DNA from: a virus
Virus record (IMG/VR): IMGVR_UViG_3300047498_000022
Coordinates: 1-37,541 of that record
DNA: 37,541 nucleotides
Reading direction: 5' to 3' (one strand)
The notes under the pieces were generated by a model. It was not told the origin of the DNA and did not search any database. It saw only the letters and a list, made by a program, of their open reading frames with translations. Positions 1,686 to 2,834 of the stretch are shown piece by piece (positions within the stretch are counted from its first letter, which is position 1; each line of letters begins with the position of its first letter). Made by a program: the position numbers and the translations under genes.

Positions 1686-2603
1686 ATGGCAGCTTATTAT
1701 AACGAGATTGACCCCTATGCAGCGCAGTGGCTCCGCAACCTTATTAAGGCGGGGCATATTGCCCCGGGTGACGTTGATGATAGGAGCATAAAAGATGTCA
1801 GACCAGACGATCTCAAAGGATATGAACAATGCCATTTCTTCGCAGGAATCGGCGGGTGGTCAATTGCGCTTAGACTTGCCGGATGGAGCGATGACCAACG
1901 GGTGTGGACAGGAAGCTGCCCCTGCCAGCCCTTCTCAGTTGCCGGTAAAGGCAAAGCGCAAAGCGACGAACGCCACCTCTGGCCCGCATGGTTTAATCTC
2001 ATTAAGTCCGTCCAGCCTCCAGTCGTGTTTGGAGAGCAGGTTGCAGGAGCGATTGCCCACGGGTGGCTTGACGATGCCTTCGATGATCTGGAAGGGCAAG
2101 GTTACGAAACGGCAGCGTGTGTACTCCCAGCTTGCAGTGTCGGTGCGCCGCACAAACGCGACAGGCTCTGGTTTGTGGGCCACTCCGAATTGCTTGGACT
2201 ATCTACCGCAGCGCAGCCCGGAGAGCCTACTGAGGCAGGCGACAACAACACGGAAAGGCAGAAGCCGACCAGCGATTTTACGGGAACAAGTCGATCTGGA
2301 AGTAGTGAAACTATGGCCGACACCAACAACAAGGGATCACAAGGACGGAACAGCGCAGAGTTGTCAGAATGTTCCAGTAAACAGTTTGCTGGGCAGAGCG
2401 GTGCATATGTTTCCGACACCTCAAACGCAGGGGCTAAAGGAGTGTGTGAACGGAAAGACCTACCCGGTGCAGGGCAATGGGACGTTGAACCCCCACTGGG
2501 TCGCGTGGCTAATGGGATACCCGCAAGAGCACATAAATTGCGCGCCTACGGAAACGCCATCGTCCCGCAAGTCGCGGCGGAATTTATCAAAGCAACAATG
2601 TAA
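1686..2603 (+). CDS. C5 cytosine DNA methyltransferase
   Basis: Transfers a methyl group from S-adenosylmethionine to carbon 5 of cytosine in DNA; in a phage this usually protects its DNA from host restriction. The motifs appear in the family order: FAGIGG (motif I, residues 52-57, cofactor binding), GSCPCQPFS (motif IV, nucleophile Cys80), GEQV (motif VI, about 116-119), RDR (motif VIII, 158-160) and YGNAIVPQVA near the C-terminus (motif X). Motif I is preceded by an N-terminal segment (YYNEIDPYAAQWLRNLI) typical of phage enzymes. The region between motifs VIII and X (about 170-280) is the variable target-recognition part and is rich in Ser, Gly, Asp and Asn, with ADT/SDT motifs. At 305 residues it is complete and all catalytic residues are present. 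Most of it is overlapped by another gene in a second frame (1795-2628). Confidence 0.95.
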   Translation: MAAYYNEIDPYAAQWLRNLIKAGHIAPGDVDDRSIKDVRPDDLKGYEQCHFFAGIGGWSIALRLAGWSDDQRVWTGSCPCQPFSVAGKGKAQSDERHLWPAWFNLIKSVQPPVVFGEQVAGAIAHGWLDDAFDDLEGQGYETAACVLPACSVGAPHKRDRLWFVGHSELLGLSTAAQPGEPTEAGDNNTERQKPTSDFTGTSRSGSSETMADTNNKGSQGRNSAELSECSSKQFAGQSGAYVSDTSNAGAKGVCERKDLPGAGQWDVEPPLGRVANGIPARAHKLRAYGNAIVPQVAAEFIKATM

Positions 2604-2628
2604 CCGAACAAAGGGCTCAGGAGTATGA
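1795..2628 (+). CDS. Out-of-frame gene inside the methyltransferase (WPTPT-motif protein)
   Basis: A 277-codon frame lies almost wholly inside the methyltransferase gene, shifted by one base. It carries features I know from a widespread phage protein type found beside such methyltransferases: APASPSQLP near the N-terminus, LESRLQERLPTGG (about residues 80-92), IWKGK, ARRTN-like SVRRTNATGSG followed by LWATPN, RSPESLLRQ, KLWPTPTTRDHKDG, MFPTPQTQG, and NPHWVAWLMGYPQEH near the C-terminus. It has its own upstream GGAG eight bases before ATG 1795. It runs 25 bases past the methyltransferase stop and ends in an ATGA overlap with the next gene, as expected of a translated member of this operon. Function is unknown; a methylation or DNA-modification partner is a guess. 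It could instead be a frame shadow that databases have copied, since the same bases encode the ADTN and SDTS motifs of the enzyme. Confidence 0.6.
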   Translation: MSDQTISKDMNNAISSQESAGGQLRLDLPDGAMTNGCGQEAAPASPSQLPVKAKRKATNATSGPHGLISLSPSSLQSCLESRLQERLPTGGLTMPSMIWKGKVTKRQRVYSQLAVSVRRTNATGSGLWATPNCLDYLPQRSPESLLRQATTTRKGRSRPAILREQVDLEVVKLWPTPTTRDHKDGTAQSCQNVPVNSLLGRAVHMFPTPQTQGLKECVNGKTYPVQGNGTLNPHWVAWLMGYPQEHINCAPTETPSSRKSRRNLSKQQCNRTKGSGV

Positions 2629-2834
2629 TGAACGAGATACTAGAGTTGGATGAGCGTGAAGACGGGCTGATGGAGCCTCATAACGATTCGGACATGCAGA
2701 TGTTCATGCACTGCACTGCTGGATCGTGCGCCATAACATATTGCTATTTTCAGGATTTAGCACCTGTGTTTGCTTGCCACGGTTGGACAATGTTTAAAAG
2801 ATTCCGCAACGGAAAGGTTGATTTCATATCATGA
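2628..2834 (+). CDS. Hypothetical acidic protein, 68 aa
   Basis: Two ATGs are adjacent at 2625 and 2628. AGGAG at 2619-2623 is too close to the first, so the second (MNEILELDE) is preferred. The N-terminal half is strongly acidic. The second half has scattered Cys and aromatic residues (HCTAGSCAITYCYF). No family is recognised. It overlaps the following gene by four bases (ATGA). Confidence 0.7.
   Translation: MNEILELDEREDGLMEPHNDSDMQMFMHCTAGSCAITYCYFQDLAPVFACHGWTMFKRFRNGKVDFIS

Follow-up and report, generated by a model that had tools for sequence, protein, structure and literature searches.

Among the closest described systems, motifs I-VIII and X of the C5-methyltransferase M.EcoHK31I (YGGCCR) lie in its larger subunit and motif IX in its smaller one, and the predicted target-recognition domain (TRD) of this enzyme has been placed in the larger subunit (PMC3404938). 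An alternative frame within the large-subunit gene reportedly encodes the small subunit (Lee, Kam, Shaw 1995). In M.AquI the split falls inside the variable region, which both of its subunits share (PMC3404938). The C5-methyltransferases of phages SPR, SPbeta and phi3T contain several tandem target-recognition modules that confer several specificities (PMC8936443); modules of this type are about 38 residues long. Additionally, out-of-frame HNH genes of the ShiLan type have been described within phage methylases (PMC11855218).

The locus analyzed here lies in the window, meaning the whole 37,541-nucleotide stretch of virus record IMGVR_UViG_3300047498_000022 that was examined, and consists of two overlapping open reading frames (ORFs), called alpha and beta. 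Its features, with the evidence for each, are listed below.

1686 to 2603, plus strand: alpha, C5-methyltransferase ORF of 305 aa with motifs I-VIII and X (PF00145/phrog_363; hhalign)
1783 to 1786, plus strand: GGAG, ribosome-binding-like site for beta, within alpha codons R33-S34 (sequence; AGG enrichment)
1795 to 2628, plus strand: beta, 277 aa, inner frame within alpha (ORF, phase conservation, codon and substitution tests)
1839 to 1856, plus strand: alpha motif I, FAGIGG (sequence; hhalign)
1920 to 1937, plus strand: alpha motif IV, PCQPFS, with the catalytic Cys (sequence; hhalign)
2089 to 2094, plus strand: beta invariant W99-K100 (IWK), over alpha D-L-E (Leu codon test; W99 invariance)
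2151 to 2171, plus strand: alpha motif VIII, HKRDRLW, where the constrained frame switches (substitution positions; hhalign)
2176 to 2313, plus strand: beta module 1, WATPNCLDYLPQRSPESLLRQATTTRKGRSRP... (module typing)
2202 to 2552, plus strand: alpha residues 173-289, mostly predicted disordered, shadow of beta (pLDDT for 197-289; first-position substitutions)
2314 to 2409, plus strand: beta module 2, WPTPTTRDHKDG...NSLLGRAVHM, read as ADTN in alpha (module typing)
2410 to 2481, plus strand: last beta module (FPTPQ...), SDTS in the alpha frame, running into motif IX (sequence; module survey)
2482 to 2538, plus strand: beta motif IX, TLNPHWVAWLMGYPQEHIN (profile alignment to ordinary C5-methyltransferases)
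2550 to 2570, plus strand: alpha motif X, GNAIVPQ, starting 26 nt after beta MGYP (spacing survey; hhalign)
2625 to 2834, plus strand: next ORF, 69 aa, its start overlapping the beta stop as ATGA (ORF list, sequence)

Both ORFs are open throughout and share 809 bp. A beta codon is made up of the second and third bases of an alpha codon and the first base of the next, so that the alpha wobble base is the second base of beta and the beta wobble base is the first base of alpha. The GGAG lies 8 nt upstream of the beta ATG at 1795, and the beta stop TGA (2626-2628) overlaps the ATG (2625) of the next ORF. Alpha matched PF00145 (E 4.5e-21) and phrog_363 (E 4.5e-83), and beta matched phrog_1008 (E 2.7e-27); no family was found for beta in Pfam and NCBIfam. 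Beta carries LESRL and NPHWVAWLMGYP, and the DNA read as ADTN and SDTS in alpha gives WPTPT (from 2314) and FPTPQ (from 2410) in beta. A preliminary description had claimed the two open overlapping frames, the GGAG, the ATGA coupling and the motifs, all of which held when set against the ORFs and the sequence, as did its proposal that WPTPT is a frame-shift of ADTN arising from one DNA pattern.

As in M.EcoHK31I, alpha has motifs I-VIII and X and lacks IX, while a match to motif IX, if a weak one, is found in beta; and, as is reported for M.EcoHK31I, the small subunit is encoded in the other frame within the large one. By arrangement the locus probably works like M.EcoHK31I, although sequence homology and the requirement for two polypeptides remain untested. 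It differs in that the predicted TRD of M.EcoHK31I is in the large subunit, whereas our data assign a module array to beta, and in that neither wide spread nor module shuffling was described for that system in the literature searched. The window does not show the M.AquI-type split: its motif X belongs to alpha, and the overlap of the two frames is nearly complete. Four other loci, discussed below, resemble M.AquI, with I-VIII in alpha and the variable region and IX-X in beta. The SPR, SPbeta and phi3T enzymes are single-frame monomers, unlike the window, where the array, whose function is inferred, sits in a separate overprinted subunit. In the ShiLan type, too, a phage methylase gene conceals a protein in another frame, but that protein is a homing-endonuclease insertion, whereas beta is no insertion and its conservation extends over both classes of alpha. 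The family of beta itself has been annotated in a few phages, as phrog_1008, "Mte8-like protein" or "g55 internal gene", with the labels DNA methyltransferase or hypothetical, and no statement of dual coding or of a role was found with these annotations. None of the literature searched on overlapping genes and methyltransferases describes the alpha/beta family. As far as that search reaches, the following are new: how widely the pair occurs, the map of selection along it, the gradation of arrangements between an M.AquI-like split and full overlap, and the attribution of a shuffled specificity array to the overprinted frame.

The pairing proved to be general. A same-phase partner frame was present in 336 of 336 loci, whichever frame was used to find them: alpha accompanied beta in all 176 loci found through beta (phage records, IMG/VR and bacterial genomes), and a beta homologue was present in all 160 found through alpha. 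The latter were chosen by the N-terminal half of alpha only, and comprised two alpha classes (i and ii) of 80 loci each. Single phage records with the pair include N15, K1ind1, BcepC6B, PMG1 and Mycobacterium SG4, as well as phages of Paenibacillus, Lacticaseibacillus, Komagataeibacter and Rhodobacter, and the pair also occurs in bacterial genomes of many phyla. In N15 the homologue is gene 58. Within the phyla of two seed genomes, G015 and G009, matches were found in 2 of 148 and 2 of 149 genomes, respectively, seed genome counted; the pair is sporadic there, in line with a mobile gene. Beta was never seen without alpha in the loci examined. PMG1 has an intact beta, the sole annotated frame, and a broken alpha frame; separately, one locus (L063, ~1706-1709) has a single in-frame stop in alpha with beta intact. 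PHROGs labels both phrog_363 and phrog_1008 as DNA methyltransferase, and annotation therefore cannot separate the subunits.

Such a pairing could be explained by a frame shadow, in which alpha alone is translated and the conservation of beta mirrors that of alpha. This explanation is favored by the first ~127 residues of beta, which overlie conserved alpha motifs where alpha is the chief constrained frame, and by the lack of a Pfam or NCBIfam family for beta. Against it, the beta frame is open far more often than the alpha sequence dictates. Between motifs IV and X it was stop-free in 64 of 69 class i loci versus 4.3 expected and in 41 of 57 class ii loci versus 1.3 expected, with a stop within the tested interval in the other 5 and 16, respectively; expectations came from shuffles of alpha synonymous codons in alpha-selected loci. 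The third sense frame was open over the same interval in none of the tested loci, and a control set of 20 ordinary C5-methyltransferases from the same genomes contained no open case (mean of 10.0 stops versus 11.3 expected).

Alpha codon choice, moreover, is dictated by beta. Where alpha [VLM]A[DNHY] precedes Gly (WLMG in beta), GCT and xAT were used in 94-100% of cases, whereas elsewhere (WPTP in beta) the choice was GCC (80-87%) and xAC (93-98%), compared with a background of 18-23% for GCT and 36-45% for xAT. Only alpha-selected loci entered this test, because beta-selected loci had been found via the WLMG DNA pattern. The residues tolerated in alpha (D/N/H/Y, then A/T/S/P) are those allowed by the free third base of beta Pro/Thr codons. 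Under beta W99, which is invariant in 85 betas, the alpha Leu codon (D-L-E) was CTG or TTG in 89 of 89 cases versus a background of 24-38%, and in the N half the Pro of APH was CCG in 85% of class i versus 24%. Control sites in motifs IV and X showed no comparable codon enrichment. At the beta start site the alpha Asp was GAT, which gives ATG, in 67 of 87 loci (background 40%), and at the GGAG site the alpha Arg was AGG in 29% versus 8%. These codon tests correct only partly for shared ancestry.

Substitutions were mapped in 20 independent pairs of 80-99.5% identity as changes per codon at alpha bases 1/2/3. The values were 0.097/0.079/0.232 upstream of beta (third/first ratio 2.4), 0.070/0.041/0.150 in the motif I-VIII overlap (2.15), 0.195/0.095/0.110 in the overlap from VIII to the beta stop (0.56), and 0.077/0.045/0.203 downstream of beta (2.6). 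Third-base changes were fewer than first-base changes in the module part in 19 of 20 pairs (sign test p 4e-5) and exceeded them in the N part in 17 of 18. The constrained frame therefore switches at motif VIII and reverts after the beta stop. In the motif I-VIII half, alpha is the chief constrained frame and the first ~127 residues of beta are largely secondary, with exceptions such as W99; from VIII to X, beta is the constrained frame and the alpha ADTN text a by-product.

Both frames are thus under selection and beta is a genuine protein rather than a shadow, a conclusion inferred from sequence alone, as neither peptide nor ribosome-profiling data are available. Together with loci, described below, in which the module region codes in the beta frame only, the openness, codon choice and first-base substitutions largely refute the shadow explanation, which is all but excluded even without a beta peptide. 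The preliminary description had posed a dual-coding pair conserved across phages against a shadow, and had suggested looking at alpha synonymous sites, at stops in the inner frame of relatives and at whether WPTPT proteins overlap a methyltransferase in the same phase. Alpha synonymous sites are not free, the inner frame is open in most relatives, and the phase is the same in every locus examined. The conserved dual-coding pair held, and extends beyond phages to bacteria of many phyla; the shadow option held in part, region by region, for the secondary N part of beta and the ADTN region of alpha.

A further explanation, programmed frameshifting from alpha near motif VIII to yield an alpha-beta fusion, would agree with the phase being fixed everywhere and would give back the order I-VIII, TRD, IX. 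It is opposed by the conservation and constraint of beta upstream of VIII (W99 and its codon test) and by beta's own enriched start and Shine-Dalgarno site, and we consider it very unlikely, although slippery sites were not searched for.

The catalytic motifs are divided between the two frames. In hhalign comparisons with ordinary C5-methyltransferases, the alpha alignment was confined to motifs I-VIII (E 5e-16) and X, and beta aligned solely at their motif IX (short-segment E 2e-4), a match that is short and statistically weak (whole-profile P 0.12). Window alpha does not meet the criterion for a monomeric C5-methyltransferase (PF00145), which is a TRD and motif IX in one chain. The usual arrangement, seen in 295 loci, places I-VIII and X in alpha and the modules and IX in beta, and the distance from beta MGxP to alpha GNA was exactly 26 nt in 253 of them. 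In three loci (L258, L260 and L289) alpha ends directly after motif VIII, and beta, which starts within alpha, continues alone through WPTP modules, LNPxWxExLMGFPxGWTD and GNAV (IX and X), with 16-22 stops in the alpha frame across the beta-only region. The same split is found in an isolated phage, Gordonia phage Gmala1, where alpha ends after VIII and beta runs through module(s), IX and X.

Several individual arrangements were also observed. Two apparent cases of beta with motif X (L055 and L318) fit a single frameshift and were hence excluded. Gordonia phage Baddon (L381, 2158-2317) has a beta-type motif IX in alpha's own frame, upstream of motif X, and its beta frame retains module-like text. 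Alpha motif X lies 467-497 nt 3' of beta motif IX, not 26 nt, in L004, L052, L102, L112 and L201, which have apparent insertions. In Klebsiella phages KpV2811 and ZX4 (L011, 1456-2802; L336, 1444-2790) the beta frame extends into an endonuclease VII ORF; L337, a relative without the interruption, shares its terminal SQRNSLKHS with L011, which suggests that a nuclease gene was inserted where beta and alpha end. Class i alphas have apparent motif II-III text (YYNEIDPYAAQWLRNLI...GDVDDRSI) ahead of motif I (window 1686-1860), in agreement with a secondary hhalign match (E 0.065) and the strand order of the model. The alpha N-terminus may possibly represent a local permutation, unlike those located at the TRD.

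Beta contains 1-7 WxTP modules with a median length of 37 residues. At 55% identity these form 330 types, 49 of which occur in at least 3 loci at differing array positions, and in 608 of 1115 pairs of similar modules the identity is over 10 points higher than between the alpha N-halves. With class labels taken from a rough regex, the type of window module 1 is found elsewhere mostly with classic (class ii) alphas (41 of 43 loci), and that of module 2 is common to class i and class ii loci at differing array positions; the window beta combines one type seen mainly with class ii alphas and one seen mainly with class i. The array meets the criterion for multispecific tandem TRDs, namely tandem interchangeable modules in the specificity region. 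We read it as target recognition because monomeric methyltransferases of Bacillus phages are known to have recognition domains in tandem (PMC8936443); that the WPTP modules have this role is likely, by analogy, in the absence of specificity or DNA-binding data.

The AlphaFold model of alpha was confident and M.HhaI-like in the catalytic part, and confident likewise in the motif X helix, whereas residues 197-289 had pLDDT <50 and no structure. Beta alone was modelled poorly (pLDDT 61, pTM 0.26); its model matched no solved fold, and no relative was found among the sequences of solved structures. These results bear on a two-subunit enzyme with the TRD in alpha between VIII and X, where beta would provide only motif IX and stability, as stated for M.EcoHK31I from sequence prediction (PMC3404938). 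Against this unlikely alternative, the VIII-X region of alpha is predicted disordered, varies mainly at first codon positions and is missing in L258, L260, L289 and Gmala1, while beta has a module array that is both conserved and shuffled. These observations favor beta as the carrier of the TRD, although specificity data are lacking.

Beta could also be an independent protein, such as a regulator or antitoxin, that merely shares DNA with alpha; no experiment links the two, and beta has no solved relative. The motif IX-like end of beta, the continuation of the same ORF into motif X in four loci and the absence of beta without alpha make this very unlikely.

The reading that we prefer, and regard as likely, is that alpha and beta are the two subunits of a C5-methyltransferase of the same kind as M.EcoHK31I, with a swappable WPTP array and motif IX in beta; assembly, activity and specificity are inferred. 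The preliminary description named no function for beta. Alpha (1686-2603) would supply the catalytic and cofactor domain (motifs I-VIII and X). Translation of beta would begin at its own Shine-Dalgarno site and ATG inside alpha, in the other frame, and provide motif IX together with an array of interchangeable WxTP modules of ~37 residues, which most likely serve target recognition. Alpha and beta would then assemble into an enzyme methylating phage DNA, probably as protection against host restriction. Between VIII and X, the ADTN-type text of alpha would for the most part be a by-product whose openness allows alpha to extend to motif X. Selection on both frames, the distribution of motifs, modularity and conservation of phase are shown from sequence, whereas assembly of alpha and beta, DNA reading by the modules and the anti-restriction role are inferred. 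A bolder reading, which we regard as fairly likely, is that in a widespread class of C5-methyltransferases the entire machinery for DNA specificity, a shuffling library of ~37-residue modules, is encoded in an overprinted second frame of the catalytic gene; if so, many of the methyltransferases annotated in phages and bacteria would represent only half of an enzyme, and the annotated protein would not reveal the specificity.

Beta is almost always overlooked in gene annotation. If the proposed explanation is true, alpha and beta are a dual-coding pair on the same strand whose conservation across phages and bacteria is very wide, and in which the switch of selection between the frames can be seen at a single point; this would explain recurring annotation conflicts. 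The annotated methyltransferase expressed alone is predicted to be inactive or poorly specific. Modular, separable specificity subunits would be available for reading and engineering methylation targets, and it would become testable how two proteins share DNA while one keeps exchanging modules. Elsewhere in the window, at the record edge (1-190), seven 27-bp tandem repeats (CACGGCGGCATCCAGTGGCGACTCCAG) encode repeats of the TAASSGDSS type.
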